Part shown: positions 1 through 28,675 of the stretch, piece by piece
How positions within the stretch are numbered: position 1 is the first letter of the stretch
Layout of the letters: each line of letters begins with the position of its first letter
Assembly (NCBI GenBank): GCA_002964805.2
Contig: PUDQ02000069.1
Coordinates: forward strand, 1-64,000
DNA length: 64,000 nucleotides
Source: Trametes villosa
Lineage: Eukaryota > Basidiomycota > Agaricomycetes > Polyporales > Polyporaceae
Direction of reading: 5' to 3'
Position numbers and translations under genes: made by a program
The notes under the pieces: generated by a model
Databases searched by the model: none
What the model was told of the DNA's origin: nothing
The model's input: only the letters and a program-made list of their open reading frames with translations

Positions 1-2511
1 ACAATCCATATGTAGTCGTATCCGTGCGAGGGCGGAAACGGACCGAAGAAATCCATGGACATAGACGTCCATGGCACCGTAGGTATCGGTAGCGAGTGTA
101 ACAGCCCTATAGGGGGCTGTGTACTTATTTTCGTGGTGTGGCACACGCCGCACGAAATGCAGAACTTGTCTACATCCTTGCGTAACACGGGCCACCAAAA
201 CCACTTGCGCACGTACTCTGACGTGCGCTGAGGTCCAAGATGTCCAAGCGCGCTATGCGCTTGGTCTAACACGAGCTCCTGAAGGGCCCGTTTCCGATAC
301 AGACCACGAGGTATACACAATACCTCGTCGCCTTCACGGTTCTTGGTGTATATCACACCCTCGCGCATTACGAATGCGCGATGCTGAGTAGGCCGTTCCA
401 GTATTTTCTGAAACGTCGGGTCATTAACATAACCTGACTTGACGGCTTTCAGGAAGCCGTCGTCTCCTTCTACCCAGACACGCAAAGAGGGACCCGCAGA
501 TAGCGAGTCCGACAGCGTCACATTGTCGCTGTCCGGGGTTGCTGCAGTCACCGTGATAGGTGCGTGTGCAGCGTAACGAGCCGACTCTACGACTCGTTCC
601 TCTATTAGTTCTTGCACGCGTGTAGCGTGCGCGTTATCTGTCTCTAGCTGCGCGAGTTTCCGCGCAGATCGACGCAACACTCGAGCTGCGCGTAGCTCGA
701 TGAGTCGGGAGAAGGGGAGATCATCCCCTTCAGGATCTAGCCGTAAATCGGCGTTAACATAGTCGAAATCTTCGGCTAGTTCCTCTATGTCGTCGTGTTC
801 GAAGTAGCGGGATAAGCAGTCCGCTACTTTGTTCAGTTTACCTGGAATATAGGTAATCGTCTTGTCGAACCTCGACAAGAATTCGTACCACCGTATCTGA
901 CGGTGGTTAGGACGCTCGAGTCCCTCAAGGAAACTCGAGAGCTCTATGGTCAGTGACTATATTGAGCTTCCGTCCTATGAGCTTGTCCTCCCACTTGAAC
1001 AAGCCTTCCATGATGGCTAGAGCTTCTTGCTCGTAGGTGCGATACGCCCGTTGTGCGGACGTAAATTTCTTCGACAGGAACCCGGCTGGCCTGCAAGTTT
1101 GCCAGTCGGGTCCTTGCCCGTATAACGCTCCGAGTCCATATACGGACGCATCACAGATCAACCAAATGGGATCTGTGGAAGCCGGATCTATCGGCTTCAG
1201 TATGGGCACCTTACACGCGAGTGCTTTGATAGACTCAAAACACTTGTCGTGCAGTGCGCGCCATACGAACGGACGGTCGTTATGGACCATGTCCGATAAC
1301 GGCGATGTATACGCCGTTACATCTGGCATAAAGTGTGCCAGATAGTTTACTAGCCCGAGGAACCGCTGCACCTCGTTATACGAGCGAGGTGTTCGCCAGT
1401 TCCTGATACGGCTCATCTTGTCCGTATCGGCGTGTAGTCCCTTGTCATCTATTCGGTGACCGAGACAATCCAAATCTTTGGAGTATAAGTCGCACTTGCT
1501 GCGGCTTAGGAAAAGCTTCGCCTCTCGAAGCTTTTCGAACACCATCCTTAAGTGTTCTTCGTGCTCCTCCTTGGAGTCCGAAAATACGAAAATGTCGTCC
1601 AAATAGACATGGACGAACCTTCCGATACAGTCACGGAATATGGCTGTCATTAGACGTTGGAATGTGGACGGGGCGTTGGTGTCGCCCTGTTGCATGACCT
1701 CGCTCACGAACGTCCCGTAAGGCGTCGCGAACGCGGTCTTCCAAACGTCCTCCGCAACTATGCGGATCTGTTCGTAGGCGTCGGACAGATCAATCTTCGA
1801 GCGATACTTCGCTCGAGCAACGTCCATCCGGATCTGGTCTTGATCCGGAAACGGTGTCAGGTCGTGCACCGTGTTCTGGTTTCGTTGTCGCGCATCGAGT
1901 ACGGTGCGCAGCTTGCCATTCTTCTTGGCAACGCACAGCAGAGGCGCTGCTTGCGTGACCGTTACCGGTCGCCACCAGCCTGCCTTCACATAGCGATTGA
2001 TTTTCGCTATGAGCTCTGGCTTCACCACGTCCGCGCAACGTGGGAGATGATAGCGATATTTCTTCGCTTCATCGATGAGCGGAATGTGGTGATTGATCTC
2101 CCGGAACGGCGGGAGATGCTCCGGCGCAGGACGCATAATGTCCTCGGTGGCCGCATACCAGCGGTCACGAAGAGCTTTCAGCTCCTCCTCTTCCTCGTCT
2201 ATGACGAACCCAGCGTGGGTTCGTCGGATCTGTTCGTCTTCCCACTGCTCCTTGGCTATCTTGTCCAAGAGCTCGTTGATGCCGTATGGGTCCTCGTACC
2301 CATACTTGTCCCTTCTAGGACCTCGCGACGAATGCATCGTCGGAATGAATTTTTCGCCAATGTTCGGCGGCGAGCTATCTTTGGCTCGTCCTTGGTGTCG
2401 TTCAGGAATCTTAACGGTTTCTACACCGTTCCCTCCCCCTCCTGACGACCCTCCGGACTTGTCGTAACGAGAGTGGGGAGGTTCCACTCTTGTGGAACTC
2501 GCTACGTTGTC
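1..2511 (-). pseudogene. Gypsy-A pol: reverse transcriptase, RNase H, integrase N-terminus (frameshifted, partial)
   Basis: The frame directly continues that of gag-pro after a single TAG at 2512-2514, so pol may be reached by readthrough. Reverse transcriptase shows the catalytic YLDDIFVFS motif near 1600, followed by an RNase H domain with CDASVYGLGA and TDHRALEF. Near 929-933 (TTTCCTTGAGG on the minus strand) one extra C shifts the frame to a TGA. In the next frame the sense resumes with RQIRWYEFLSRF and DCLSRYFEHDD, then an integrase zinc finger (H-x..-H, CISCGVC) and the first part of the catalytic core (WTSMSMDFFGPF) at the window edge. The single-base shift means this copy probably makes no full polyprotein. 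Any chromodomain would lie outside the window. Confidence 0.88.
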
Positions 2512-2514
2512 CTA
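2481..2514 (-). promoter_or_regulatory. in-frame TAG between gag-pro and pol followed by a hairpin (candidate readthrough site)
   Basis: On the minus strand the gag-pro frame ends CAG TAG GAC. The same frame then runs on through reverse transcriptase with no further stop until the frameshift near 930. A 7 bp hairpin, GTTCCAC-AAGA-GTGGAAC (2481-2498), begins 13 bases past the TAG. Gammaretroviruses and some retrotransposons express pol by reading through such a stop. Because hairpins occur all along this element, this one may carry no special meaning, and the TAG could be a simple mutation. Confidence 0.4.
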
Positions 2515-5500
2515 CTGCTTAGGTATAGCAGTACCTTCGAATTGGAATCGAGGAACCCATTTCTTGGGTTCGGGTTTCGCAGTCGTCGAAACCTCAGGAT
2601 CGAACAACGGCAAACTTTTGCCGTTGATTACTACCGTACCTGCACGGAAGTCTAGGATTACTCCATGCTTCCTGCAGAAGGTAGTTCCCAATACGACATC
2701 GTACTTATCGATGTCTACTACGTCAAAGTATTGCGTAGTATTCACAGAGCCCACCTTGAGCTCTGCTTGCGCACCGTAATTGATGCGCGTCTTGCTGCCC
2801 TTGGTTCCCAATTGCAGCCCTACAGGCTGCGCCAGATCGATACGATCTGCGCGACTCAGATACGCCAACTCTGGCGTAATCGAATCGGTCATGCAGCCCG
2901 AGTCGAATAAGGCCAGAGCTGTGACCTTATTGATTGTAATCTCAGCGCATAGTGTGCGCTGGGCCTGGAGCGTGCGCACAGGTTGCGCCGCGGGATCGTC
3001 TATACGACGTATCTTGTTGTCGTATAACCAGGCCTGCTTGTACCCTCGCGTGGGTGCAACCGCCATGGTGTGTAACCGAAGAGGCTCAGGTTCGGCCTCT
3101 TCCAGCGGTGCAATACGCATCGCGATGAAGTATTCATCTGCATCTCCCTCTCCAGGAGATGCGTAATGATCCTCGTCAGGATCATACTGAGATCCTTCCA
3201 GACCATAGTCTGACAACGGATATTCTCCGTTATCGTCTGGGCTATCCGCAAGAGTCTCGGGTTCAGGCTCTTGATCCTCGGGACGAGTTGCCGTGTTGTC
3301 GTCGGCAACGTCTTGTTGTGTAGACGGCTCGTTGCCGTCGTCCGACGTGTCGTCGATGACACGCTGAGCGAACATCCGCTGTACTGTAGCGGATTTCTTC
3401 CCGTAGTTGGGACATTTCGCGTCGCTCGCGAAGTGGCCTATTTGACCACAGGAATAGCACTTAAGAAGTGCTTTCTGAGTCTTATCAATCCGCGCAGTTG
3501 ACGCGGATTGCTGCACCGCGCCAGACTGACGCGGTACCGAACCACCTCGCACGTCTGTCGAAGGGCGTTTAAAGCCAGTAGTAGCTTTATGTATCGTAAT
3601 ATTATTACTACGGGAAGCCGAAGCCGTTGGCTTCCTAAGTACATTACGCACTCCTCGTTGCGGGCGTGCCTCTACCGTCGGCTTAGCACCGGTGTTCGGT
3701 ATAGTATGTGCTCGCGAAGGTTCGCGAGCTAACTTCCGAAGCCGCATAGCGCGCGACTTCTGCTCAATATCTTGAGCCACTTGGTACAATTGTGCCAAGT
3801 CGTGTTCTTGAGGAGACATACCGTTAACAACGGTAAGTAGGTACTCGATGTCTTCGGGTAACGCCTCAATGAACTTCCTACGCAATTGGAAGGGCGTAGG
3901 CTTCTCCCACATCCTTTCGGATATGTACAGCAGCTTCTCATATAAAGCTGCAACCCCTCCGTCACTGGAGCGGTAAACTAGCGAAGCATACTGTTGCTCC
4001 GCAAGTAGGTTCAAATCCTTATGGATGAACCTACCATAGAGTGCTATAACAGTCTCCTCGAATATCCAGTCGCGCTTATCGCGCGACGGAGACTGTATAG
4101 TGTTGTAGAACCACGTAGCGGCATCACCGCTAAGTGCAGTGCCCAATATTCGGACACGGTCACGGTCCATCCTAGGACCCGTGATCCTCAACGTGTTGAA
4201 GTACTCGAGGAGGCCTCGCAGCCATACCTCGAGTGCATCGAGATCGTCCTTCCCCTCGTACGTCTTGGGTGGCGCAAGTTTCGCCACCTTCAAGTACGCA
4301 GGGGGATCACCCTCTGGAGGTGATCCAACCATCTCATCTATCATCCGTACGAGACGGCTGATCGTTACACCATCACGAGGCCCTACTACAGGCCCCGTGT
4401 ATGCCAGCGGTTCCGTAGCTTCCGCTGGCTGCATAGGAGGTAGTCCTCCGTAATATGCAGACGCTCCCATTGAACGTCGAGGGTGTTTCCAGTCCCATAG
4501 TCCAGGCGGCCGTTCTTGACGGTACGCGGGTCCTTGGGACGCAGACATAGGCTCAGCGGGATATTCGCTGGGCGAGGATGGAATTGGCTGCGCGACATGC
4601 GCAGCCCTAGTCGAGCCTTGCGGATGATCGAATGCCACGTTCCAAGGAGGAACGGCATTCTGTGCATCGCCAGTTCGACGGTTTGATGAGGACGGCGGCA
4701 GTTGCGCCGTCGTGTGCGGTGGATCATACAGCCCCGCACGACTCAGTCGTTCAATCCGGCCAGCGACGATACGCTGGCGAGGATCCAACAGTGCATCCTC
4801 TACTTCGCGATCATCCGCGAAGTTCTCCATTTGCGGATCAGCAGCTGAGCTGATATGTGTATCTATGGTTGCCCTTGTCATAGGCAACTCGTCGCTCTCA
4901 TCCTCACCAGCCACGATAGGCTGATGAATGTGGTGCCCTGCATCGGCATCCTCACTTACCGCTATAGCGCGAGCGGTAAGGTCCTCCTCGTCTTCTTCGT
5001 CCATTAGGTCACCTAGGCCTAATTCCGCTAATGCGGACTGCAGAGCGAGGTTCGTCTCGTTTTCTGCCTCGAGTATCTGCTTCTGCAGCAGACGGAATCG
5101 TTTCTTCGATTCCCGAACTACCATGCGCAACGGCGCAAGGTTCAGTGCCGGTGCCGCCGACACTGACGAGCTCGCAGCCAACTGCTGCGAGCGTCCCTCA
5201 CGCAGATCCTGCCAGTCTTGCCCAATGTTGGCAAGACTCCGACTGTTAAGCGAGCTCGCAGCGGAGCCCGATCGTCGTGACGGGCCTGCTTGGTCTGAAG
5301 CCGGTCGTCCAGCATGCACGCTGGCAGTCGCACGACCCCTAGTAGGGTTCGTGGTATCGTCTAAGCCGCCGGATACCACTGATTGTGGTATCGAGGGTCC
5401 ACCCTCGCCCTCTGTAGATCGAGGGAGTGACGTGGCGGGTTGACCCGCGCCGAAATCAGCGCGGGGGGGTTGGTTCGAGGTAGAAGTCGAGGCCCGCGGA

Positions 5501-5541
5501 GTTCGCGGGTCCGTGGGGTTGTTTGAGCTGTGGTGGCTCAT
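2512..5541 (-). CDS. Gypsy-A gag with zinc knuckle and aspartic protease (copy 1)
   Basis: An open frame of 1009 codons from an ATG at 5541, just after the LTR leader. A retrotransposon gag domain lies in the middle (DALEVWLRGLLEYF, DAATWFYNTI, FIEALPEDIEYLL). Next is a zinc knuckle, CYSCGQIGHFASDAKC, with spacing C-x2-C-x4-H-x6-C, two residues longer than the usual last gap. A retropepsin-like protease has ALFDSGCMTDS near residue 885 and DVVLGTTFC further on. The first 300 residues are Ser/Pro/Asp-rich and low in complexity. The frame ends at TAG 2512-2514, but the same frame stays open into reverse transcriptase. The nucleotide sequence is tiled with short perfect inverted repeats throughout. 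Confidence 0.9.
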   Translation of the reverse strand: MSHHSSNNPTDPRTPRASTSTSNQPPRADFGAGQPATSLPRSTEGEGGPSIPQSVVSGGLDDTTNPTRGRATASVHAGRPASDQAGPSRRSGSAASSLNSRSLANIGQDWQDLREGRSQQLAASSSVSAAPALNLAPLRMVVRESKKRFRLLQKQILEAENETNLALQSALAELGLGDLMDEEDEEDLTARAIAVSEDADAGHHIHQPIVAGEDESDELPMTRATIDTHISSAADPQMENFADDREVEDALLDPRQRIVAGRIERLSRAGLYDPPHTTAQLPPSSSNRRTGDAQNAVPPWNVAFDHPQGSTRAAHVAQPIPSSPSEYPAEPMSASQGPAYRQERPPGLWDWKHPRRSMGASAYYGGLPPMQPAEATEPLAYTGPVVGPRDGVTISRLVRMIDEMVGSPPEGDPPAYLKVAKLAPPKTYEGKDDLDALEVWLRGLLEYFNTLRITGPRMDRDRVRILGTALSGDAATWFYNTIQSPSRDKRDWIFEETVIALYGRFIHKDLNLLAEQQYASLVYRSSDGGVAALYEKLLYISERMWEKPTPFQLRRKFIEALPEDIEYLLTVVNGMSPQEHDLAQLYQVAQDIEQKSRAMRLRKLAREPSRAHTIPNTGAKPTVEARPQRGVRNVLRKPTASASRSNNITIHKATTGFKRPSTDVRGGSVPRQSGAVQQSASTARIDKTQKALLKCYSCGQIGHFASDAKCPNYGKKSATVQRMFAQRVIDDTSDDGNEPSTQQDVADDNTATRPEDQEPEPETLADSPDDNGEYPLSDYGLEGSQYDPDEDHYASPGEGDADEYFIAMRIAPLEEAEPEPLRLHTMAVAPTRGYKQAWLYDNKIRRIDDPAAQPVRTLQAQRTLCAEITINKVTALALFDSGCMTDSITPELAYLSRADRIDLAQPVGLQLGTKGSKTRINYGAQAELKVGSVNTTQYFDVVDIDKYDVVLGTTFCRKHGVILDFRAGTVVINGKSLPLFDPEVSTTAKPEPKKWVPRFQFEGTAIPKQ

Positions 5542-5645
5542 TCTTGCTGGATGCGGATGGGGGTTGCTAGGGGATTAGAGTTCGATGACGTGGTTGCACG
5601 TCGAGCCCCAAATCGGGCGATTCTAACACGGTAAGAGTAAAAAAG

Positions 5646-5933
5646 TGTAAAACTCACGAATGTCGGGCACTTCTGATGCCCGCAGTCTCCAAGTACTCTG
5701 GTCCGGGCTCTATTAGGGCTCGGCGTACTCGGGAGATGGTGGGGCAGTTGTAGAAGGCTGCCCTCACCAGACGCGCGGGCTCCGAATACCCGCGCGTCGT
5801 ACGCGTCTATCTACTACATGATATCTACGCGGTATCTTATCCTAGCGCAACTAGCGCTAGGTACTGATCGCGACATAGCGCAACTAGCGCTATGTCCTAC
5901 AAGAACCCGTAACGACCACGGAGGGTCGTTACA
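5646..5933 (-). repeat. Gypsy-A 5' LTR, copy 1
   Basis: On the minus strand it starts TGTAACGACC at 5933. The inner end is placed at TTTTACA (5646) because TGTAA/TTACA make matching inverted termini and the second copy gives the same length (288 bp). No second LTR is visible, so the inner end is a proposal. The LTR begins with a hairpin (GTAACGACC paired with GGTCGTTAC), followed by two hairpins sharing a TAGTT loop and a 10 bp GACGCGCGGG/CCCGCGCGTC stem. The 5' leader continues to the ATG at 5541. Confidence 0.75.
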
Positions 5934-8160: not shown

Positions 8161-8353
8161 AACCTTCTATATACGGACATATGAGCCTCCAGATCACCCC
8201 GCCCCATGCGCGCCGTGCGCGCGCTGGTGTGCGCTGCGTGGGATTTATGCGCGCGGCGGTAAGAAAAGGTTAGTTTCGCGCTGTAATGTGGCTGTGCGCG
8301 CAGATAAACTGACTTTGCGCAACATTTATTAAATGTACAAATGGACCGTCATA

Positions 8354-11241: not shown

Positions 11242-12882
11242 ATGTCTAGCCAGCCCTCGTCCGCGGGGCCTGCACCTCCTGACGGACACGCTGACGTTGC
11301 CCTGGAGCTCCTGGACGAAGTCTTGGAGCCTCTGTGGATGTCTGAGCCCAGCGGTGTCGCCGACGCGACCGACTACCTCTTGTGGGCCGAGCAGGTTGCT
11401 ACCGCCTTGGTACGCCTAGCCGCGACTCCCGTTACCACTGCGCTCGCTGACGCCCTCTTGCTAGGACACCGCGATCGCCTCCGGGGTCGACCCTTCGCGC
11501 CTCGCCGCGTATGCGGACCGCGTCCATCATGTTATCGCGCACCGCCTACCTGGCGCTCGCGACATGTGGCCGGAGTGGGCGAGCGGCGCCCTGCTGCAGG
11601 CAGATGAGCGCGCCCAGGCCGCTGAGGCTGCCCGCCGCGCTGCTGAAGACGAGGCTCGTCGCGCCGCACCTTTTGAGTCTCGCGAGGCTGCACCGCGCGG
11701 TGCTGGAGCGCGCAACTACGCCTCCCTCGCGCCGCCGGCTGCGCTTTCCGCGATGGACCGTCTCCGAGCTCTGGGCGCGTCCGCTCGCCGTTCCACCTCT
11801 GCCTTCGCGACCCCTGAGAAGGAGCCGGACTTGGCCGCTGTCCTGGAACGCCCCAAACCGCGCCCGCGCAACTTCACAATCCCGCGCACGCAGTTGTTCG
11901 ACCACGTCGCCGTCCCGTCGCGCACCTCGTCGGCTACTCCCGCGGGTGCTCCGGCGCCGCGCAAGCGCGACCGAACCCCCGAGGCGTCCCTGGACCTGGA
12001 CCACCTGGTCGAGGAGGAGAGCGATGAGTCGGAGTCCAAAGAAGACGACACTGGGCCCGCTCGCGCGACTCGCTCTGCGACGCGTGGCCAGTCTACCACC
12101 TCGGCGCCGCCTGCCAAGAAGGCGCGCACCTCCGCAAAGAGCAAGGTCACTCGCGCGCCTGAGCCCGAGCTGCTCGCCAACTGGGTGGTGCGTCCGCCTG
12201 TACTCCTACAGGCGCGCGGTAGCGCTGACCTTCTTCCTCTGGTGTAGCAGTACCCACGTTGTGCGAAGTGTGCGGAGCGCGGCCAGACTTGCATCCTTCA
12301 AGAGGACGCGCCGCGTTGCCACCGGTGCGCGCAACACCACCGCCGCTGCATTTTCGGCCCTGAGCCCGGCGTGCCGTACGCGGCCTGGTACGATCAACAG
12401 CGCTTTCCACGCGGTAAAGTGTCCTGGTCTCTGCTCCTATCGCCTGCTGCTGACGCCCTCTCAGCGATCGCGACCTTGAACACCACCGGCCAGGTCGTCT
12501 CCGCGAACTTCGCGACACCGCAGACCGTCCCCGCCCTCGCAGCCGAGCCTGCTAAAGGCAAGGCCAAGTCGGTGGCCGGCAGGTCCTCGGCCAACGCGGT
12601 CGCGTCCGGGTCCGGCACGCGCGCGCGTATCCAGTCCGCTGTACGTCTGTCTTTTGATCTCCTGCGCTTTCTGGCGCGCCGCTGACAGTCCTACAGTCCG
12701 CGCCCGCTGGCACTGCCTCCTTGCGCAACAGCGCGGCCGACAACGCGCGCGTCGAGCTCAGTGGTCTCCGTCTCCGCCGCGTCGCGCTTGATGCGCAGAT
12801 CGGTGAGGTGGAGCGATACCTCCGCGATGTGCGCAGTGCTCCGGCCCGCAACACCCTGCCGTTCTTGGGGGATGATGAGTGA
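11242..12882 (+). CDS. Zn2Cys6-like protein with C-terminal coiled coil (four exons)
   Basis: Exons 11242-11409, 11465-12199, 12248-12640 and 12697-12882 join in phase to 493 residues. All three introns (48-56 bp) have a CTGAC branch. Residues 306-335 hold six cysteines spaced C-x2-C-x6-C-x8-C-x2-C-x6-C, the exact pattern of fungal Zn(II)2Cys6 DNA-binding clusters. It sits mid-protein, after a long Ala/Arg-rich and acidic region (EEESDESESKEDD), not near the N-terminus as in most transcription factors. The last exon looks like a coiled coil (RVELSGLRLRRVALDAQIG). It lies tail-to-tail with a gag gene inside a transposon nest, so it may be a transposon-borne accessory gene. That is inference; the function is unknown. 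Confidence 0.65.
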
Positions 12883-13257
12883 GGGTGCGCAGTCGGAAGG
12901 GAGGGGAGGTGGTGAGCGGGCCGTAAGGTGGTAATGTCCGTAGTCAGTACCCAGATCGTCAATCGCGTCGGCCTGCCCGCGCGCTCCTGCGCGGCGCTGG
13001 TCGGCCTTTCTTGGGTCTCAAGCTGGTCCGCAGGATAAGGGAAGGGGAGAGAGGTGAGAGAGCGCGTGTGAGAGAGCAAAGGGGCGCAAGAGCGAGAGAG
13101 CGAGAGAAAGAGAGAGCGCGCGGGCCAAAGCGAATCAGCGCAATGTACAAAGAAGAAAATGGAAGCGAGAGGGAAGTGGGAGCACGCCAGCGCGCTCTTC
13201 GTATGTGTCCGCATTGTCTGGGAGCCTATCGCGCCTGCGCGTCCGCCATGCGCCGCG
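12883..13257. other. spacer between convergent genes
   Basis: Separates the tail-to-tail Zn2Cys6-like gene and the minus-strand gag. It contains the GA-rich tract listed next and no other feature I can support. Confidence 0.5.
13031..13122 (+). repeat. GA-rich low-complexity tract
   Basis: About 90 bases of almost pure purine with GAGA-type repeats and interspersed GCGC. It lies between the two convergent stop codons. Confidence 0.6.
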
Positions 13258-15867
13258 CTAGTTGTCTTCCAGTGTAATCTCCTCGGTCGCTGGCTCGCTG
13301 TCGTTGCTGTCCTCTAGTCCTGCGATCGCGCGTGTGTCGCCCTCCGCTGTCAAGATGACTCTGGTTCGCTCCGTGGTTCTCCTCGCTCGCGCGCTCTGAC
13401 CTGGCGCTCCGCTCGTTTTCTGGGTGCCTGTGTCCGGTGCATCCTCCCCCCCACTGAGATTGTGACCGTCCTCGGTCACCTGGGCGAGCGTGAAGGGGTG
13501 GGTGAGGCTGCCGGCGCCAGAGAGGCTCCTGCGCGGTCGCGGGGGAAGCCAGTGCGTCGCGCTCTGGCCCTGGCTGATCTGCGTCTCCGCCACTAGTCTG
13601 TGGACGCCGACCAGGTAGAGCGTTTTCGCTGGTCGCGTGCGGAAGGGGCAGTAAGATAAGCGCCTCTTGCGATGGTCCAGCGTGAGGTCCAGGGCAACGG
13701 AGTCGCGCGCCGCTGTGCCAGTAGTTCCAACCGCGACCGCAGAGCCGAGCAATGAGTCAGAGGCGGCAGGTTCGCTTTGTAGGTCTGAGCTGGGTGGAAA
13801 GGCCGCAGTGGCCTCGGGGACGCGATTGGAGGACGGGGGATAGAGCGCAGGTAGAGAGAGAGCGCGTGCGGGATATGAGGACACGGAGCGCGTAGAATCT
13901 GAAGCAGGGGGCACAGGGGTATAGGCGCTGAGGGCGCATCCGTCCCCATCCACCTCCATGATCGCCGCAACCCTAGCGCGGTCTAGCGCCTTGTTGCTTG
14001 CGAGACTCGCGGTCTCTAGCGAATCCTGGTGACGCAAGTCCTGGCTCTCGCGAGGGTCAAGGAGAGAAGCGGCGCAGGCGATGCTGGTGGAGCGCATGGT
14101 GGTCGGAACTGGGGGTGGGGGGTCGGTGTCGCAAGACTTTGCATGTCGCTCAGGAAGGAGGGGAAGGGGCCGCTTTGGCGATCGTGCAGCGGGTGGTGTC
14201 TTCCGCAATGTCTCGGGGATCTCCTCCGCAAACTTAGGGCTGTAGTCTGGAGTACGTGTCTGACAGGCCGCCTCGCGCTCTGGTGCGCTCCGCGTTACTG
14301 GGGGCTTGCCAATATCGCGGCTCGGTGAAAGGGCAGCTGCCTTGCGGCGCGGTTTTGCGAAAGGGTGTTCTCGTGCTTCGCTCGCGGTGGGTCCTTGGCG
14401 TGAGGAAGAGACTGGGGAAAATGTGGGTGGGCGGTTTTCCACTCTTGGGGAGCTGGCCTCGCGCGCGATCATACTGATCATTGCATCGCACATGTCGCCC
14501 ACCGCGATAGCCCTGAGTTGAGCCGGTCCGTGGGATGGGTCATATGCCGTGTCGCGCGTCTTTGCAAAGGGGTTCTCGTGTCCTTTCATGGTAGTCGCTT
14601 CGCGGTACGCGCGCGCTTCACCTGCCGCTGCGTTCGGGGGTAGAACTGGCTGATGAGGTGAGGGGTCGCGCTGGCGCTGGCTAGCGCTAGTGTGTGTCGG
14701 CAGGGGCTCGGCTTGTGGCAGGGAGGGGTGTTTGACGCGTGGCCGGTCGGCGTCCGCATTGCCAGAGCACTCTCGCTCCCTGGGGAACAGCGAAGTCGGT
14801 CGCGAATGTGAGCTGCGGTACGGGGACCTCGCGACACTATTGGCACCATTCTGGCCTTGGCTCTGGCTAGCCTGCTTGAGCATGCGGATCTCGTGCTCGA
14901 GCTGCGCGATGCGCTCGGCTGCGCTGAGCTGGAAGCTAGGCCTGGGAGGGCGGCCATAGTTGTCGCGCGCGACCTCGAAGCTGAGCTGTGCGACCACCGG
15001 CGCCGGCGCGTTCGTGTGATGTGCCAGTGTGCCCGGGTTGCGGCGATGCCACTCGTAGACGCGGTCGCGGATTTTTACGCCTTCGAAGTGTGGGCTGAAG
15101 AGCGTCCTGGGGATGAAGCTGCCATTCGAGAGCACCACATAGCTTTGGTCATTGCGCCTGACGCGACCGCCCCGGATGTCCTCTTCGACGGCCGGGCAGT
15201 TCCGTAGCTGGCAGCTCACGCCGCCGCAGTAGTGGCAGGAGTGTCCACCTGGGGTGTTCGCGGGCGGATACCAAGCTTCACCGTGAGCCGGTGGCGGCAG
15301 CTGGACCTGCTGGGGGCCTCTACCGTGGTTCGCAGTGTGCGCGGTCGCACCCGTGCTCCCTTCGCTGACCGATTGCGCGAGTAGCCTCAGGATGGCGCCA
15401 AGATCCTCCATCTTCACCATCGCTCCGCCGGTGTTTGGCGCGCTCAGTGCCGTGTTTGTCGCAGGCGCAGGCGCAGATGGCAGACCAGACGCGAGGGTGC
15501 CATGGAGGACAAAGACCGCTGCGTTGTAGACGGTCTCCAGCGGGTAGGGGTCGTCAGGGTAATGGTCCGGCTCCTTGAGCTGTAGGCGCTGCAAGACCTG
15601 TTCCCGGAGCGGCGAGCAGATACCGCGCACGAAGAGGCGCGACTGTTCCGACTTAGAGATGCGGTCCGTATTGACGAGGAAGATGGTCTGGGCAAGGAAG
15701 TCGCGATGGTAGCTGGAGAGCTCCGCAATACTGGTGATCGACCGCGTCCTGCGCGCCGCTACAAGAGCCTCGACATTGGCCACCGAGTACTTGCGCGCTT
15801 CGCCCGCCTCAGGGTAGAGTTCCGTGATCGTGCTCTTGAGGTCCTCGTACGACTTCGCATCGCTCGC
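13258..15867 (-). CDS. retrotransposon gag-like protein with Cys4 knuckle, N-terminus cut by Gypsy-A
   Basis: An open frame runs from the Gypsy-A LTR boundary (15867) to a stop at 13258, about 869 codons. Its first residues (ELYPEAGEARKYSVANVEAL, then SSYHRDFLAQTIFLV) match the middle of a gag-like domain common in basidiomycete retroelements, so the natural N-terminus is lost. At about 15197-15238 the knuckle reads CHYCGGVSCQLRNC, a C-x2-C-x4-C-x4-C form where the usual histidine is cysteine. It is followed by VRRNDQSYVVLSNGSFIPRTL, a typical post-knuckle block. SAAERIAQLEHEIRMLKQ suggests a coiled coil. The rest is Ser/Pro/Arg-rich. No protease or polymerase follows in the window. Confidence 0.7.
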   Translation of the reverse strand, partial: ASDAKSYEDLKSTITELYPEAGEARKYSVANVEALVAARRTRSITSIAELSSYHRDFLAQTIFLVNTDRISKSEQSRLFVRGICSPLREQVLQRLQLKEPDHYPDDPYPLETVYNAAVFVLHGTLASGLPSAPAPATNTALSAPNTGGAMVKMEDLGAILRLLAQSVSEGSTGATAHTANHGRGPQQVQLPPPAHGEAWYPPANTPGGHSCHYCGGVSCQLRNCPAVEEDIRGGRVRRNDQSYVVLSNGSFIPRTLFSPHFEGVKIRDRVYEWHRRNPGTLAHHTNAPAPVVAQLSFEVARDNYGRPPRPSFQLSAAERIAQLEHEIRMLKQASQSQGQNGANSVARSPYRSSHSRPTSLFPRERECSGNADADRPRVKHPSLPQAEPLPTHTSASQRQRDPSPHQPVLPPNAAAGEARAYREATTMKGHENPFAKTRDTAYDPSHGPAQLRAIAVGDMCDAMISMIAREASSPRVENRPPTFSPVSSSRQGPTASEAREHPFAKPRRKAAALSPSRDIGKPPVTRSAPEREAACQTRTPDYSPKFAEEIPETLRKTPPAARSPKRPLPLLPERHAKSCDTDPPPPVPTTMRSTSIACAASLLDPRESQDLRHQDSLETASLASNKALDRARVAAIMEVDGDGCALSAYTPVPPASDSTRSVSSYPARALSLPALYPPSSNRVPEATAAFPPSSDLQSEPAASDSLLGSAVAVGTTGTAARDSVALDLTLDHRKRRLSYCPFRTRPAKTLYLVGVHRLVAETQISQGQSATHWLPPRPRRSLSGAGSLTHPFTLAQVTEDGHNLSGGEDAPDTGTQKTSGAPGQSARARRTTERTRVILTAEGDTRAIAGLEDSNDSEPATEEITLEDN

Positions 15868-16155
15868 TGTAACGACCCTCCGCGGTCGTTACGGGTTCTT
15901 GTAGGACATAGCGCTAGTTGCGCTATGTCGCGATCAGTACCTAGCGCTAGTTGCGCTAGGATAAGATACCGCGTAGATATCATGTAGTAGATAGACGCGT
16001 ACGACGCGCGGGTATTCGGAGCCCGCGCGTCTGGTGAGGGCAGCCTTCTACAACTGCCCCACCATCTCCCGAGTACGCCGAGCCCTAATAGAGCCCGGAC
16101 CAGAGTACTTGGAGACTGCGGGCATCAGGAGTGCCCGACATTCGTGAGTTTTACA
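15868..16155 (+). repeat. Gypsy-A 5' LTR, copy 2
   Basis: 288 bp from TGTAACGACC to TTTTACA, the same length as copy 1. It differs from copy 1 at two positions, both in hairpin loops (CTCCGC versus CTCCGT near 15880; CAGGAG versus CAGAAG near 16130). The inner end is inferred from matching TGTAA/TTACA termini. A leader hairpin GACGTG-CAAC-CACGTC lies at 16199-16214. Confidence 0.75.
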
Positions 16156-16259
16156 CTTTTTTACTCTTACCGTGTTAGAATCGCCCGATTTGGGGCTCGA
16201 CGTGCAACCACGTCATCGAACTCTAATCCCCTAGCAACCCCCATCCGCATCCAGCAAGA

Positions 16260-18928
16260 ATGAGCCACCACAGCTCAAACAACCCCACGGACCCGCGAAC
16301 TCCGCGGGCCTCGACTTCTACCTCGAACCAACCCCCCCGCGCTGAGTTCGGCGCGGGTCAACCCGCCACGTCACTCCCTCGATCTACAGAGGGCGAGGGT
16401 GGACCCTCGATACCACAATCAGTGGTATCCGGCGGCTTAGACGATACCACGAACCCTACTAGGGGTCGTGCGACTGCCAGCGTGCATGCTGGACGACCGG
16501 CTTCAGACCAAGCAGGCCCGTCACGACGATCGGGCTCTGCTGCGAGCTCGCTTAACAGTCGGAGTCTTGCCAACATTGGGCAAGACTGGCAGGATCTGCG
16601 TGAGGGACGCTCGCAGCAGTTGGCTGCGAGCTCGTCAGTGTCGGCGGCACCGGCACTGAACCTTGCGCCGTTGCGCATGGTAGTTCGGGAATCGAAGAAA
16701 CGATTCCGTCTGCTGCAGAAGCAGATACTCGAGGCAGAAAACGAGACGAACCTCGCTCTGCAGTCCGCATTAGCGGAATTAGGCCTAGGTGACCTAATGG
16801 ACGAAGAAGACGAGGAGGACCTTACCGCTCGCGCTATAGCGGTAAGTGAGGATGCCGATGCAGGGCACCACATTCATCAGCCTATCGTGGCTGGTGAGGA
16901 TGAGAGCGACGAGTTGCCTATGACAAGGGCAACCATAGACACACATATCAGCTCAGCTGCTGATCCGCAAATGGAGAACTTCGCGGATGTTCGCGAAGTA
17001 GAGGATGCACTGCTGGATCCTCGCCAGCGTATCGTCGCTGGCCGGATTGAACGACTGAGTCGTGCGGGGCTGTATGATCCACCGCACACGACGGCGCAAC
17101 TGCCGCCGTCCTCATCAAACCGTCGAACTGGCGATGCACAGAATGCCGTTCCTACTCGGAACGTGGCATTCGATCATCCACAAAGCTCGACTAGGGCTGC
17201 GCACGTCGCGCAGCCAATTCCATCCTCGCCCAGCGATTATCCCGCTGAGCCAATGTCTGCGTCCCAAGGACCCGCGTACCGTCAAGAACGGCCGCCTGGA
17301 CTATGGGACTGGAAACACCCTCGACGTTCAATGGGAGCGTCTGCATATTACGGAGGATTACATCCTATGCAGCCAGCGGAAGCTACGGAACCGCTGGCAT
17401 ACACGGGGCCTGTAGTAGGGCCTCGTGATGGTGTAACGATCAGCCGTCTCGTACGGATGATAGATGAGATGGTTGGATCACCTCCAGAGGGTGATCCCCC
17501 TGCGTACTTGAAGGTGGCGAAACTTGCGCCACCCAAGACGTACGAGGGGAAGGACGATCTCGATGCACTCGAGGTATGGCTGCGAGGCCTCCTCGAGTAC
17601 TTCAACACGTTGAGGATCACGGGTCCTAGGATGGACCGTGACCGTGTCCGAATATTGGGCACTGCACTTAGCGGTGATGCCGCTACGTGGTTCTACAACA
17701 CTATACAGTCTCCGTCGCGCGATAAGCGCGACTGGATATTCGAGGAGACTGTTATAGCACTCTATCGTAGGTTCATCCATAAGGATTTGAACCTACTTGC
17801 GGAGCAACAGTATGCTTCGCTAGTTTACCGCTCCAGTGACGGAGGGGTTGCAGCTTTATATGAGAAGCTGCTGTACATATCCGAAAGGATGTGGGAGAAG
17901 CCTACGCCCTTCCAATTGCGTAGGAAGTTCATTGAGGCGTTACCCGAAGACATCGAGTACCTACTTACCGTTGTTAACGGTATGTCTCCTCAAGAACACG
18001 ACTTGGCACAATTGTACCAAGTGGCTCAAGATATTGAGCAGAAGTCGCGCGCTATGCGGCTTCGGAAGTTAGCTCGCGAACCTTCGCGAGCACATACTAT
18101 ACCGAACACCGGTGCTAAGCCGACGGTAGAGGCACGCCCGCAACGAGGAGTGCGTAATGTACTTAGGAAGCCAACGGCTTCGGCTTCCCGTAGTAATAAT
18201 ATTACGATACATAAAGCTACTACTGGCTTTAAACGCCCTTCGACAGACGTGCGAGGTGGTTCGGTACCGCGTCAGTCTGGCGCGGTGCAGCAATCCGCGT
18301 CAACTGCGCGGATTGATAAGACTCAGAAAGCACTTCTTAAGTGCTATTCCTGTGGTCAAATAGGCCACTTCGCGAGCGACGCGAAATGTCCCAACTACGG
18401 GAAGAAATCCGCTACAGTACAGCGGATGTTCGCTCAGCGTGTCATCGACGACACGTCGGACGACGGCAACGAGCCGTCTACACAACAAGACGTTGCCGAC
18501 GACAACACGGCAACTCGTCCCGAGGATCAAGAGCCTGAACCCGAGACTCTTGCGGATAGCCCAGACGATAACGGAGAATATCCGTTGTCAGACTATGGTC
18601 TGGAAGGATCTCAGTATGATCCTGACGAGGATCATTACGCATCTCCTGGAGAGGGAGATGCAGATGAATACTTCATCGCGATGCGTATTGCACCGCTGGA
18701 AGAGGCCGAACCTGAGCCTCTTCGGTTACACACCATGGCGGTTGCACCCACGCGAGGGTACAAGCAGGCCTGGTTATACGACAACAAGATACGTCGTATA
18801 GACGATCCCGCGGCGCAACCTGTGCGCACGCTCCAGGCCCAGCGCACACTATGCGCTGAGATTACAATCAATAAGGTCACAGCTCTGGCCTTATTCGACT
18901 CGGGCTGCACGACCGATTCGATTACGCC
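16260..18928 (+). pseudogene. Gypsy-A gag and partial protease (copy 2)
   Basis: The ATG at 16260 opens a frame nearly identical to copy 1. It contains the gag domain, the CYSCGQIGHFASDAKC knuckle and the protease start ALFDSGCTTDS. At 18928 it passes into the Gypsy-B LTR and ends a few codons later at 18987-18989 in LTR-encoded sequence. Amino-acid changes from copy 1 include D to V, PW to TR, E to D, P to H and G to R; most come from loop substitutions. Confidence 0.85.
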
Positions 18929-19069
18929 TGTTAAGATAACGCTTGAAGTGGCGTTCGAGCGCACTCAAAGAGTTATAAATAACAAGTAGATTGATGAGTC
19001 AAGAGTATTGGTTGTTACAGGATGAAACAGGAGATCGAAACTGGGGAAAAGAGAGGGAGAGAGGGGGTC

Positions 19070-19077
19070 CTTATATA
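19070..19077 (-). promoter_or_regulatory. Gypsy-B LTR TATA box
   Basis: TATATAAG on the minus strand, downstream of the TGAGTCA cluster. It is present at the equivalent place in the 5' LTR (about 27328-27335). Confidence 0.6.
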
Positions 19078-19150
19078 CTGTGGGGGGAAGGATCTGCGCA
19101 GCAGATCCGCAGTAAAGCGCAGCACTGCTGCAGCACGTCCGCAGTCAGTA

Positions 19151-19255
19151 TGAGTCAGGTTTGGGCTAAGTATAGTACACCGCAGTCAGGATGAGTCATG
19201 AGGAGTCAGGACGAGTCATATGGACTAAATATAGAGTCTGAGTCAGAGTGAGTCA
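19151..19255 (-). promoter_or_regulatory. cluster of TGAGTCA (AP-1/Gcn4-like) sites in the Gypsy-B U3 region
   Basis: Perfect TGAGTCA cores occur at 19151, 19192, 19239 and 19249 (plus-strand starts), with close variants GGAGTCA at 19202 and CGAGTCA at 19212. They lie upstream of a minus-strand TATATAAG (19070-19077), as expected for U3 control sites. TGASTCA is the known core of Gcn4/AP-1 bZIP factors. The same sites recur in the 5' LTR. Confidence 0.6.
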
Positions 19256-19291
19256 TTGGCCGTATTGGGAACCGAGGATGAAATTGTAACA

Positions 19292-19303
19292 CTACCCCCC
19301 CCT
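19292..19303 (-). other. Gypsy-B polypurine tract
   Basis: On the minus strand an AGGGGGGGG run lies directly before the 3' LTR, the usual plus-strand priming site of LTR elements. Confidence 0.7.
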
Positions 19304-19328
19304 TTAGGTTGACCTTCCAGGTCAACGC

Positions 19329-20825
19329 CTAGTCCGTCATGGTGTCGGTAAAGGCCTTGCGCCGGCGGACGACGAACTCCGGGAGCTTTGGCGGTTCAGG
19401 AAGCTTCGGGGAAGTGGGGATTTGGGCCGAAGCAGGAGTGGGCAGGATTGACGAGGTCGATGCTGCAGTGGCCAAATCCGCTTCAAAATCTTTCCATCCT
19501 CCCGGTTCGCGCATGCTGTCGATAGGGACGCGGATGGCGTAGACCTTGGCCTTAGCGTTCCTGTCGCTGGTCATGTCGAGGCCTGGGTAGTGAGGGTCCA
19601 CCTCTTTGGCGATGGACGAGGCGACATAGCGGAGGGTGGCGAAAGGCATGTGTAGGTCGGCGTCGGGGATGTAGTAGCCGGTCTGGACGCGGAATGCAGC
19701 TATCATAGCGCGTTGGAGAGGGGGTAAGATGGCGGTGGGAATCGCGGCGAGGCGGTTGACGTCGCTGAACTCCGAGGGATGAATAGGCTTTTCCTCTGGC
19801 CAGACTGTCCTGATGAATGCGCGAGTACTCCCGGGGATGGGGGCGATGTAGGCGACGAGGACGTCGGTGTCGGGGTCGTCCATGTAGGAGTCGTCGGACT
19901 CCAGACTGGGCATCGACAACGAGGCAGGCGAGAGAGGGACGTATTCGGGGGATGAGTTGCGAGTGGGCGGTTCGAGGAGAGAGGGCGTTGAGATGGGGGG
20001 AGTATGAACCGATTCGGGGACCGGGGACGTGAGTCGATCTTCGAGGGCTTGCCTCACGTCGTGCCACTCCGAGGAGGAGCTCGTCGACGAGCTGGGGGGT
20101 TCCGGAGTGGAGACTTGTACCTCAGAGAAGTCCACAATAGGGGGCTCGTTCTCCTTGTTGTCGTCCCAACTTTCCCAGTTGCCGTTGGGAACTCCCCACC
20201 TCGTGGTGTCCTCCGTGATCTTGTAGAGGGGGTCACGGCTACCGTTGGTGCCCAGCATGCAGTCGATGCGGGCGGGTCCGTCGTGAGTGGGGTTAGGCTG
20301 CGGGGCGTTCCATCCGGCGCGGCGGCGGGGAAGCAGATCTTCGATCATACCCAGAGCGGGGTAGAGGGCGACTTGGTTGAGGGCGACCTCGGCGATCTGG
20401 ATGATTCTGCTGAAGGCGGCGGTGTAGGAGACGTTCGCCTGCCTGAGGAAAACGATCTCCTGGGGGTCCGGATGGTTCTGGACGTAGTTGTCCATGTGGC
20501 GGAGAGCGGGAAGGACGTCGCCGCACATCCGGTACACGTCGACCCAGTGACGTGTTCCGGGGAGCGAGACGAGGCGTTGATTGACAATCGCCTGGAGATC
20601 GGGGTGGAGGAGAGTCCACCCGAGCCGGTCGGGCAGAGTCCCATTGGAATAGGACGCAGTGGGGAGGCGAGGGAGATGGTCGTAGGTCGGGTTCACCCCC
20701 TTCACAAAGGAGGGTGCAGGAGGGACGAGGCGTCCCAGGACGGGGGCTTGGAGTCGATTGATCGGAGAGGGGGAGTTCGAGGAGCGAGTGCGGTGTTGGC
20801 GGCGAGAGCGGTGGTTGCGGGCCAT
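19329..20825 (-). CDS. Gypsy-B third ORF downstream of integrase, function unknown
   Basis: The frame is open from 20987, overlapping the integrase end, but the first sensible ATG is at 20825, 83 bases past the integrase stop. That gives 498 residues ending near the 3' LTR. The N-terminus is short and Arg/Ser-rich. A central block (LHPDLQAIVNQRL, ALRHMDNYVQNHPDPQEI) and a C-terminal block (PLQRAMIAAFRVQTGYYIPD) look globular, joined by a Ser/Pro/Glu-rich linker. I see no signal peptide or membrane span, so an envelope role is not supported. An intact long frame in this position implies the element uses it. Confidence 0.6.
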   Translation of the reverse strand: MARNHRSRRQHRTRSSNSPSPINRLQAPVLGRLVPPAPSFVKGVNPTYDHLPRLPTASYSNGTLPDRLGWTLLHPDLQAIVNQRLVSLPGTRHWVDVYRMCGDVLPALRHMDNYVQNHPDPQEIVFLRQANVSYTAAFSRIIQIAEVALNQVALYPALGMIEDLLPRRRAGWNAPQPNPTHDGPARIDCMLGTNGSRDPLYKITEDTTRWGVPNGNWESWDDNKENEPPIVDFSEVQVSTPEPPSSSTSSSSEWHDVRQALEDRLTSPVPESVHTPPISTPSLLEPPTRNSSPEYVPLSPASLSMPSLESDDSYMDDPDTDVLVAYIAPIPGSTRAFIRTVWPEEKPIHPSEFSDVNRLAAIPTAILPPLQRAMIAAFRVQTGYYIPDADLHMPFATLRYVASSIAKEVDPHYPGLDMTSDRNAKAKVYAIRVPIDSMREPGGWKDFEADLATAASTSSILPTPASAQIPTSPKLPEPPKLPEFVVRRRKAFTDTMTD

Positions 20826-20907
20826 TGTCGAAGCTGAGGCTGTCGAAGTCGAGGAGGAGTAGTGCGAGGGGGTTGAGGGAATCCAGAGTGGGCAGGGTCT
20901 GGGGATT

Positions 20908-22089
20908 TCAGGCCATCTTGTGCAGCTTCTTATAGCGTTGGAGAGTTGCTTGTGCGTGTTTGAGGTCTTTCTCACGCAGCCACTCATTCTCGTGCTGCGG
21001 ACGGCCTTTCCATGTGACTAGGTACTGGATTCCTCCACGGGCTGGCTTCCTGTGATTGATAATTGCTTCGATTTCCCACTCTTCCTCTCCGTCAATTGTG
21101 TCCGGTGGTGGTGACACGTAATTCGGACCGTGTTCTGGGGTGGTTCGGTAGTGCGTGATCAAGGCGGTGTGAAATACTGGGTGAATCTTCCATGCCTTCG
21201 GGAGTCGGAGTTTCACGGTGGTAGGTCCCATGACTTCGTCGATGACAAAGGGACCTTCTCGTTTTGGTGCGAGTTTCCGGTTGGGATAGGGCAACTTGAG
21301 GTTCGTGGATTCGAGGAACACCTTTTCTCCCTTCTTGAAGGTCACATTGCCTGCTGCCTGTCTCTTGGCCATGGCGGCGGCGGCTTTTGCGTGGGAGGCG
21401 ATGGCGTTTTCTCGGAGTTCCTTGAGGTGATTCAATCGTTCTTCCGTGCTAGGGTGCTTGGGCTTAGGGTGTACGGTGCCTATAGCTCGTGGTTGATATC
21501 CCATCAGAAGTTCGAAGGGGCTTTTCCCAGTGACCGAATGAGTCCGGTGATTGTGCGCGAATTCAAATTGTGGCAAGAGGGTGCTCCACGTGTCGGGGTA
21601 GTTCCCACAATAGATCCGCAGTGCGACTTCGATTTCTTGAATGGTCCGTTCTGATTGTCCGTCGGTTTGAGGGTGGTGAGACGTGCTGAGTGATTGGCCA
21701 ATCCCGAGGAGTTTATTCATTTCTTGGTATGCGTGTGAGATGAATTGCGGGCCTCGGTCGGATATGATGCGGTCTGGAAGTCCAAATCGGGAGTATACAT
21801 CTCTCACGAGAAGATGTGCGGTGTCCATGGCGTTGGTTTCTTTCGTACATTCCGAGAGAACAATGGCCTTGGATTCGTCGTGGTCGACAACCACTTGAAT
21901 TGCGTCGAATCCGTTGGATAAAGGGAGTCCGGTGACGTAGTCCATTGTTATCGTGCCGAATGGCCTTGTTGATCCGCTGTGTGGGATAGGCATCATTCCG
22001 GGTTTGGTGGGATGTGTGTTGACTTTGGCGTTTGGCATGTTGCGCATCCTTTGACGTATTGGGTGATGAAGTGTCGCATGCCTGGCCAC
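20908..22089 (-). pseudogene. Gypsy-B integrase core and chromodomain (frameshifted from RT)
   Basis: In a different frame from RT-RNase H it reads NTHPTKPGMMPIPHSG, then the catalytic core (MDYVTGLP, D of the DDE triad; SDRGPQFISH; HHPQTDGQSERT). It ends with a chromodomain (IINHRKPARGGIQYLVTWKG) and TGA at 20908. The RT frame and this one overlap around 21993-22089. The sense switches near 22020-22035 (AAAGTCAACACA on the minus strand), where one base seems to be missing. That is an unusual place for programmed frameshifting, so I take it as a disabling deletion. Confidence 0.85.
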
Positions 22090-24540: not shown

Positions 24541-24550
24541 GTTCGTCCTC

Positions 24551-26329: not shown

Positions 26330-26343
26330 ACACTCGGGTACGA

Positions 26344-27181: not shown

Positions 27182-27187
27182 ATCTAA

Positions 27188-28625: not shown

Positions 28626-28675
28626 CAGTAGCAACAGAACAGAAGCAACAGAACAGCACATCAGAACAGCACACC

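Follow-up and report, generated by a model that had tools for sequence, protein, structure and literature searches.

Tiling of a Gypsy-A retrotransposon with short hairpins

The locus analysed here raises the question of whether a retrotransposon can carry a near-continuous string of short hairpins through its coding sequence and, if so, what maintains such an array. The window, a 64,000-nt stretch of Trametes villosa DNA, contains parts of Gypsy-A, a Ty3/Gypsy element of ~10.5 kb in which the tiling runs throughout and reaches background level at the 3' LTR. The initial annotation was placed at 15868-18928, which is a truncated copy; a longer, inverted copy lies at 1-5933, the two sharing 99.4% identity across 3,061 bp (2873-5933 against 15868-18928). 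The relevant features are:

15868-18928, + strand: truncated Gypsy-A copy; Gypsy-B starts right after 18928
15868..16155, + strand: 5' LTR of the truncated copy, 288 bp, TG start, with six hairpins of at least 6 bp
16260..18928, + strand: gag coding region with zinc knuckle, cut at 18928 (open frame 16227-18989; the start ATG at 16260 is our choice)
1..5933, - strand: second Gypsy-A copy, continuing past base 1 of the window, with the same tiling
5646..5933, - strand: 5' LTR of this second copy, positioned via its match to 15868-16155
2512..5574, - strand: gag and zinc knuckle open frame
925..2511, - strand: RT and RNase H open frame
3..956, - strand: open frame of the integrase zinc-binding domain, here in a frame different from that of RT

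The LTR at 15868..16155 matches the 3' LTR of copy C10 (L067:351-638) at 98.6%, and the 5' boundary in four other copies is identical to that of C8 or one base off, C140 excepted. With RT ahead of integrase, RNase H and LTRs present, and a match to Pfam SH3_Tf2-1, Gypsy-A is presumably a chromovirus-type Ty3/Gypsy element comparable to Tf1/Tf2. It shares with these elements the gag zinc knuckle, RT, RNase H, integrase, SH3_Tf2-1 and LTRs, but differs in having a 905-codon ORF after the integrase, which returned no Pfam match, and in a match to the integrase chromodomain (PF00385) that scores 19.8 bits, under the curated cut-off of 25.1.

Hairpin density relative to controls and shuffles

Perfect hairpins with stems of at least 7 bp and loops of 3-12 nt were counted per kb across the window:

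1-5933: 12.1
15868-18928: 11.1
5934-15867: 0.8
Gypsy-B, 18929-27539: 0.7
Copia, 27540-34600: 2.7, part of it accounted for by short tandem repeats
34601-64000: 0.8

The earlier report that the pattern was not seen in Gypsy-B and the host genes agrees with the densities of 0.7-0.8 per kb in Gypsy-B and two other control stretches, the Copia region standing at 2.7. With stems of at least 6 bp, the inverted copy carries 17.9 hairpins per kb, and the truncated copy holds 70, 55, 34 and 19 hairpins of at least 5, 6, 7 and 8 bp, respectively. About 60 hairpins had been claimed for gag, and we counted 63 non-overlapping ones (stem at least 5, loop 3-12) in 2,700 nt, against a mean of 23.6 (maximum 32) in 60 synonymous-codon shuffles. 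Five base pairs is a weak criterion, and the excess in gag becomes decisive with longer stems; at stems of at least 6, 7 and 8 bp, gag contains 48, 30 and 15 hairpins versus 7.0, 2.2 and 0.8 in codon-preserving shuffles (maxima 15, 6 and 5). The RT/RNase H region yields 37, 23, 15 and 10 hairpins of at least 5, 6, 7 and 8 bp, compared with 11.3, 3.0, 0.9 and 0.1 in shuffles, and in gag and RT stems of at least 6 and at least 7 bp lie at z 12-19 over codon-preserving shuffles. In sequence taken from another copy, hairpins of at least 6 bp number 14 versus 1.5 in the integrase C-terminus and 40 versus 10.1 in the ORF downstream of integrase (ORF3). The proposal that LTR, RT and integrase share the tiling is borne out by the excess in RT and the integrase end and by the six hairpins of the 5' LTR.

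Chance, base composition or codon bias could be invoked, since the stems are richer in GC (0.62 vs 0.54 outside). It had been set beforehand that counts no higher than in synonymous-codon shuffles of equal dinucleotide content would speak against the array; synonymous and dinucleotide shuffles were run separately, and the array stands well clear of both, with the codon-shuffle z just given, a mean folding z of -3.3 against dinucleotide shuffles, and values mostly near zero in other families. These explanations thereby retain a negligible probability. The hairpin array is a genuine feature: with protein and codon usage kept constant, it exceeds chance by a wide margin. The hairpins catalogued in 15868-18928 are:

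15869..15892: 9 bp, loop 6
15905..15929: 10 bp, loop 5
15940..15960: 8 bp, loop 5
16003..16031: 10 bp, loop 9
16409..16429: 8 bp, loop 5
16563..16587: 9 bp, loop 7
16609..16631: 9 bp, loop 5; unpaired in the C128 relic
16688..16707: 7 bp, loop 6; innermost G-C changed to A-T (compensated) in the C128 relic
16821..16846: 9 bp, loop 8; preserved in the C128 relic
16978..16999: 8 bp, loop 6; both arms altered in the C128 relic, where the alignment is uncertain
17195..17215: 8 bp, loop 5
17372..17398: 8 bp, loop 11
17475..17497: 8 bp, loop 7
17767..17796: 9 bp, loop 12; equivalent to window 4005-4034, where it occupies sense positions 1899-1928 of the inverted copy
18072..18091: 8 bp, loop 4; first described as 9 bp with a 2-nt loop, the minimum loop here being 3
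18291..18315: 9 bp, loop 7
18616..18635: 8 bp, loop 4
18639..18661: 8 bp, loop 7
18699..18723: 8 bp, loop 9
18775..18800: 8 bp, loop 10

Two alignments of the C128 relic were made, which disagree at one hairpin. All six hairpins cited originally were recovered (16978-16999, 18072-18091, 18291-18315, 18639-18661, 887-907 and 1321-1343), although two of them, given as 18292-18314 and 1322-1342, are each one pair longer.

Local, strand-symmetric folding

In 350-nt segments, the folding-energy excess is 32.5% for Gypsy-A (16 segments, covering ~5.6 of 10.5 kb) and 1.9% for Gypsy-B. Most of this excess is attained by 35-50 nt, and the structure is therefore local; a search for enrichment of longer-range pairs found none. 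Over 73 segments of 120 nt, the mean folding z relative to dinucleotide shuffles is -3.3 for the sense and -3.1 for the antisense strand, with 84% of segments below -2. An excess of G-U pairs over A-C mismatches is absent in Gypsy-A (16 vs 11), in its relatives (10 vs 20) and in controls (11 vs 16), all small numbers. Transitions shared among copies give 10 G.T vs 12 A.C in stems and 62 vs 79 outside, an unchanged ratio. The array consists of short, unbranched Watson-Crick hairpins across the whole element, LTRs included.

Loops of 5-7 nt are favoured, and the spans of hairpins with stems of at least 7 bp peak at 20-23 nt (46/72 hairpins). The idea that small RNAs dictate hairpin length is weak, as longer spans are enriched as well and self-folding 22-mers are only modestly raised (61% vs 50% in synonymous shuffles).

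Selection on stems during transmission

Some two dozen copies reside in one genome, and each insertion acts as a recorder of neutral decay, which allows selection during transmission to be separated from mutation after insertion. Comparison with 24 other Gypsy-A copies, some of them fragmentary, gave single-copy variants per site of 0.044 in stems, 0.053 in loops and 0.045 outside, against 0.010, 0.059 and 0.042 for variants common to at least two copies. This stem depletion of shared variants is 4-6-fold overall and ~4-fold at synonymous sites, is stable across nine choices of the hairpin-defining copy, and recurs in synonymous transitions found in at least two copies (stem 10/402, loop 20/188, outside 87/962). 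Conservation of stems merely through protein constraint is excluded by the depletion at synonymous sites. Loops are the fastest-evolving part of the hairpins. Variants that spread are hence scarce in stems and private ones are not, a pattern that marks purifying selection in the course of transmission. Since hairpins are kept in multiplying lineages and decay in single resident copies, the folded shape itself is suggested to help the element survive. Compensatory double changes in the A family are few, confined to two pairs of the hairpin at 17767..17796; C105, C49 and C69 have both pairs compensated, and C140 and C92b show a C.A intermediate. In the full alignment of the A' pair L031 and L036, stems show no depletion (0.177 vs 0.193 outside).

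An origin without benefit has to be weighed against this selection, namely quasipalindrome correction, in which a template switch during replication at an imperfect inverted repeat copies one arm onto the other and would both make and keep perfect hairpins. Such mutagenesis yields perfect inverted repeats with short loops, as seen in Gypsy-A; the strict Watson-Crick pairing and the equivalence of coding and non-coding regions also agree with it, and correction to the parental arm could likewise deplete shared stem variants. However, it is expected to leave one-arm tracts and raised protein change, and Gypsy-A displays neither. Differences between A and A' fall on either arm (68 left, 68 right), one-sided hairpins in that comparison number 3/35 vs 6.5 expected, and amino-acid change in stem codons is not clearly raised (22/112 vs 63/361). 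The compensated pairs sit in a single A-family hairpin, for which a one-arm-changed intermediate exists. Hairpins created by single-copy variants occur at 0.042 vs 0.041 in the control (n = 330), a weak test as these variants are mostly post-insertion. Given the two-arm changes and the control-level hairpin creation, we regard template-switch conversion as highly improbable. Structured RNA, silencing evasion, packaging and a mutational trace had originally been offered unranked; the stem conservation in transmitted variants, the fast loops and the few compensatory pairs now make selection for structure very probable and disfavour the mutational trace.

Gain and loss of arrays among relatives

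In the related families A', C15 and C1 the arrays are weaker and sit at positions unrelated to those of Gypsy-A, with weak enrichment in the gag parts of A' (z 1.1 and 2.5). Pairing conservation between relatives is low (84/168 for A in A', control 0.555; 63/144 for A in C15, control 0.445), and this position comparison rules out common inheritance of hairpin positions by A and A'. Independent gains of arrays in several related families are strongly suggested, with point substitutions that affect either arm and mainly third codon positions as their source. The gains cannot be counted, because 6/10 inner branches in a tree of 13 rows are open and long branches are present. As positions are unconserved between families and loops evolve fastest, we infer that the benefit lies in being paired anywhere rather than in particular hairpins.

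The related elements C35, C77 and C140:763 of the same genome have no array, and it is missing in most of 12 other Gypsy loci; host silencing alone, therefore, does not force an array. The third ORF is not supported as a correlate of the array, as the array-free C35 has a weak distant match to it (E 4e-4) and also contains an open frame of comparable length. No relatives were found in viral contigs. Proteins of 83-85% identity are known from Trametes.

Proposed function and competing explanations

We place the probability of the complete reading, a selected array that shields the element from RNA silencing, at roughly 0.4. Of the possible mechanisms, a role of the structure in evading silencing appears the likeliest, albeit at less than even odds, judging from sequence comparisons. 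Sense and antisense RNA that fold within ~35 nt would hide the element from RNA silencing: target sites may become inaccessible, guides derived from the element could fold on themselves, and sense-antisense annealing or RdRP copying might be slowed, while stems of at most 11 bp would be too short for treatment as long dsRNA. The lack of G-U preference and the equal folding of strands are what one would expect if both polarities have to fold. The host retains RNAi genes, with at least four Argonaute, seven RdRP and three tandem RNase III loci. More tentatively, nearly every ~35-nt stretch of both strands may have been selected to self-fold by strict Watson-Crick pairs, such that sense RNA, antisense RNA and cDNA resist hybridisation. 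This would be a sequence-independent, whole-genome counter-defence to homology-based silencing, encoded by synonymous codon choice and acquired independently by several element families within one fungus, and a distinct principle rather than GORS (discussed below) in a new host.

The same array might instead structure the sense genomic RNA for the element's own cycle, through Gag/nucleocapsid docking, particle compaction or stabilisation. The zinc knuckle in gag, the favoured loops of 5-7 nt and the end of the array where the transcribed element ends would suit such a role; sequence-independent recognition would allow hairpins to shift freely, and arrays that differ among families of one host fit an element-encoded partner. 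Nevertheless, G-U pairs are not favoured over A-C mismatches and antisense folds as well as sense, which weakens a sense-RNA-only explanation, as does the lack of longer-range enrichment; we consider it unlikely. Strict Watson-Crick pairing, strand symmetry and locality within ~35 nt would equally suit putative hairpins in single-stranded cDNA that protect or organise it during reverse transcription. The best loop size for DNA hairpins is 3-5, however, as against the optimum of 5-7 here, and other Gypsy families do without an array, leaving this DNA-level role a still less likely candidate. The purpose of pervasive structure becomes testable in a kingdom with deletable RNAi genes, and the array suggests a counter-defence independent of any suppressor protein.

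Comparison with known structured genomes

Large-scale RNA structure, so far discussed for RNA viruses, is here found in a retrotransposon. The description of the array as new holds for retrotransposons, in that no earlier report of a hairpin-tiled one appeared among the matches listed from the openly licensed literature; it does not hold more widely, GORS in RNA viruses being a close precedent (PMC7642675). Yeast Ty3, likewise a Ty3/Gypsy LTR retrotransposon with structured RNA, has a genomic RNA whose well-folded core makes up ~19.4% (PMC11381356); unlike in Gypsy-A, element-wide hairpin tiling is not mentioned in the accessible sections of that source.

As described in PMC7642675, GORS comprises a genome-wide folding-energy excess with dozens to several hundred unbranched stem-loops that follow one another along coding sequence, pairings that are not homologous between relatives, less diverse paired sites, and avoidance of long uninterrupted duplexes. 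On that description, Gypsy-A is alike in each respect: folding excess, sequential unbranched stem-loops (counted in sequence as perfect local hairpins), unconserved pairings, less variable paired sites and the avoidance of long duplexes. GORS belongs to positive-strand RNA viruses, whereas Gypsy-A is an LTR retrotransposon with RT and integrase, and may thus be said to work like GORS, not to be it. Relative to the viral structures as reported there, its hairpins are shorter and perfect, its strands fold equally and it has no G-U preference. Its excess of 32.5% is higher than the values quoted in the same text, where SARS-CoV-2 stands at 15% and the top virus at 23.4%, with programs and shuffle numbers differing between the two analyses.

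Extent and organization of Gypsy-A

Gypsy-A, a hairpin-tiled Ty3/Gypsy element, is represented in the window by two copies with 99.4% identity across their common 3,061 bp. The gag of one copy breaks off at 18928, at the junction with the LTR of Gypsy-B (18929–27539), which served as a control.

15868–18928: 5′ part of a Ty3/Gypsy element (LTR, leader, gag with zinc knuckle)
from 15868: LTR of 288 bp with a TG start
1–5933: second Gypsy-A copy, inverted, extending over RT, RNase H and part of integrase
L063:663–3380: 905-codon open frame (third ORF), 3′ of integrase, in the C10 copy elsewhere in the genome

In the 46.7-Mb host genome, which comprises 140 contigs, a search with gag DNA recovered 32 matches, fragments counted. 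The C10 copy continues with SH3_Tf2-1, a chromodomain match (below cut-off), the 905-codon frame and a 3′ LTR, and its coordinates summed with those of the C8 copy give a full length of ~10.5 kb. This third frame, which had no Pfam match, is proline-rich, with a charged, coiled-coil-like stretch judged by eye; the search recovered just two protein relatives, with identities of 45% and 37%, one of them belonging to Trametes coccinea, and its counterpart in A′, a related family with a weaker array, is 36–44% identical. Among the best 120 of 526 protein hits, the best named relatives belong to Trametes, which makes a host within Polyporales likely.

Hairpin density and folding energy

We counted non-overlapping perfect inverted repeats with loops of 3–12 and compared the counts with 60 synonymous-codon shuffles per sequence.

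Table. Hairpins per kb by minimum stem length
Region	≥6	≥7	≥8
Gypsy-A segments	17.9 / 18.0	12.1 / 11.1	6.7 / 6.2
Gypsy-B	2.2	0.7	0.35
34601–64000	2.6	0.8	0.3
Copia region (27540–34600)	5.1	2.7	1.1

The dense short hairpins that the initial annotation had described along Gypsy-A, and their absence from Gypsy-B, are both borne out: for stems of at least 6, gag holds 48 against 7.0 in shuffles and RT/RNase H 23 against 3.0, with no excess in Gypsy-B (5 vs 4.5) or in the open frame at 13261–15888 (2 vs 7.4), and a mild one in the Copia frame (14 vs 7.8). The end of integrase is tiled too, as is the third ORF, and density returns to background where the 3′ LTR ends. Stems in the window copies reach at most 11 bp. 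Relative to loops of 60–150, enrichment reaches 20-fold at loop 5 and 18-fold at loop 7, and the ratio scatters about 1 for loops of at least 15; lengths 5 and 7 are commoner than 4 and 6. Loops shorten slightly as stems of at least 6 lengthen (Spearman −0.23, p 0.02), a correlation that disappears once stems of 5 are counted (−0.09, p 0.28).

Folding energies computed in 120-nt windows with 40 shuffles each were strongly negative across the 73 windows of Gypsy-A (mean z −3.28 sense, −3.05 antisense; −3.45 and −3.43 with G-U forbidden) and near zero in Gypsy-B and the 40–46 kb stretch (−0.27 to 0.12, 74 windows each). With 12 dinucleotide shuffles per window, the excess at 350 nt (16 windows) was 32.5%, against 1.9% in Gypsy-B, and at 35 nt it was 45% against 8.0%. 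PMC7642675 gives ~15% for SARS-CoV-2, 7.5–10.7% for HCV and a highest value of 23.4%, obtained with programs and shuffle numbers not like ours.

Selection on stems among Gypsy-A copies

Variants from 24 other copies, many fragmentary, were placed on the window copy. Single-copy variants, presumably mostly younger than insertion, are nearly equal per site in stems (0.044), loops (0.053) and outside (0.045), whereas those common to at least two copies stand at 0.010, 0.059 and 0.042, and those in at least five at 0.0007 (1/1,536), 0.0265 (19/716) and 0.012 (44/3,681). At both thresholds, loops are also richer in shared variants than non-hairpin sequence. Defining hairpins in a single copy favours pairing in that copy, so the count was redone with nine defining copies, each excluded from its own count; at a minor count of at least 4, stems held 0–2 sites (of 1,118–1,570) against 9–16 in loops (of 514–728). 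Synonymous transitions in at least two copies, from a set one copy larger, fell in 10/402 stem, 20/188 loop and 87/962 outside sites (p = 1.6e-6; shared-versus-single contrast, p = 8e-5). The hairpin at 17767–17796 passes from T-A through C.A (C140, C92b) to C-G in three copies (C105, C49, C69), which also carry a double change from G-C to A-T.

The relic C128, at 82–84% identity, diverges by 0.115 in stems, 0.210 in loops and 0.159 outside; 136 of its 169 stem pairs are the same, 28 are altered on one side, 4 on both yet paired, and 1 on both and unpaired. In A′, three diverged copies show fewer variants in stems than outside (0.016 vs 0.044, 0.036 vs 0.073, 0.013 vs 0.054), loops being clearly more variable than stems in just one of them, and three near-identical copies have none in stems or loops. 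Full MAFFT alignment with the A′ locus L036, part of which aligned poorly, counts against this: A′ stems showed no depletion (0.177 vs 0.193 outside). Local self-pairing is under selection across Gypsy-A in transmitted lineages, rather than a product of decay or chance. G>A and C>T changes are in excess in C128 (74/150 among changes listed) and in single-copy variants, which we take to fit cytosine deamination or RIP-like mutation.

Origin and turnover of the array

The family survey covered 24 loci (longest open frame, stems of at least 6, synonymous-shuffle z). The excess is lacking in the relatives C35 (z −2.0), C140:763 (−0.6) and C77 (−0.1) and in a family 40% identical (−0.2), and 12 further loci range from −1.7 to 2.9; A′ pol (10.3, 8.5, 6.4, 4.9), C15 (8.8) and C1 (5.8) are enriched, with A′ gag at 1.1 and 2.5. 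The exception among the further loci is a distant Gypsy at C39:96000–99000 (24% RT identity), with a mild excess of 15 vs 5.9 (z 4.3).

Inheritance hairpin by hairpin is ruled out, since stem pairs are kept between families at chance level only: A pairs are paired in A′ in 84/168 cases (control 0.555) and in C15 in 63/144 (0.445), and A′ pairs in A in 47/89 (0.539). Differences between A and A′ number 68 on each arm and alternate more than random (one-sided hairpins 3/35 vs 6.5 expected, sd 2.2). Third positions are the most divergent, in stems (0.60) and outside (0.59) alike, pairs joining two third positions are the rarest class (32/506 stem pairs), and amino-acid divergence is not clearly higher in stem codons (22/112 vs 63/361). 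In our reading, the array is built from point substitutions on whichever arm can change, retained if pairing is gained. Single-copy variants created hairpins no more often than control (0.042 vs 0.041, n = 330), a weak test because most such variants postdate insertion.

Folding molecule and proposed function

Selection acting on sense RNA would be expected to tolerate G-U. In small numbers, no such preference is visible among single interior mismatches (GT 16, AC 11, other 17 in A; 10, 20 and 29 in A′, C15 and C1; 11, 16 and 36 in controls) or shared stem transitions (10 G.T, 12 A.C; outside 62 and 79), and both strands fold equally, so the folding would involve both RNA strands, DNA or a strict-pairing rule.

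We infer that the array would shield the element from host RNA silencing; in the host, Argonaute is encoded at no fewer than 4 loci, RdRP at 7 or more, and two RNase III domains occur together at 3 or more. Against this, related families of the same host lack an array, and just 61% of 22-mers fold at ≤ −2 kcal/mol vs 50% in synonymous shuffles. Rival explanations would have the array serve Gag docking or RNA compaction, or protect cDNA. As described in PMC7642675, the pervasive genome-scale RNA structure of RNA viruses (GORS) likewise comprises sequential stem-loops, non-homologous pairing among relatives and less diversity at paired sites; Gypsy-A differs as an LTR retrotransposon with a larger folding excess, strand symmetry and no visible G-U preference. 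We regard the array as GORS-like in the way it works but do not count it as GORS. For Ty3 RNA, PMC11381356 describes a well-folded core of about 19.4%; no published hairpin-tiled retrotransposon was found among openly licensed literature.

Other features of the window

A Copia-type element at 28037–34542 has 567-bp terminal direct repeats that are 100% identical and is therefore a recent insertion; its mild hairpin excess sits in 28562–31336, and GGACC-type repeats at 31.5–31.9 kb are part of the cause. A cluster of 7-bp inverted repeats at 8519–8621 was rejected as tiling, being accounted for by a CG-dinucleotide-rich low-complexity patch. Three tandem related stretches at 59924–64000 (~0.5–1.3 kb each, 69–73% identical) are probably a duplicated gene family.
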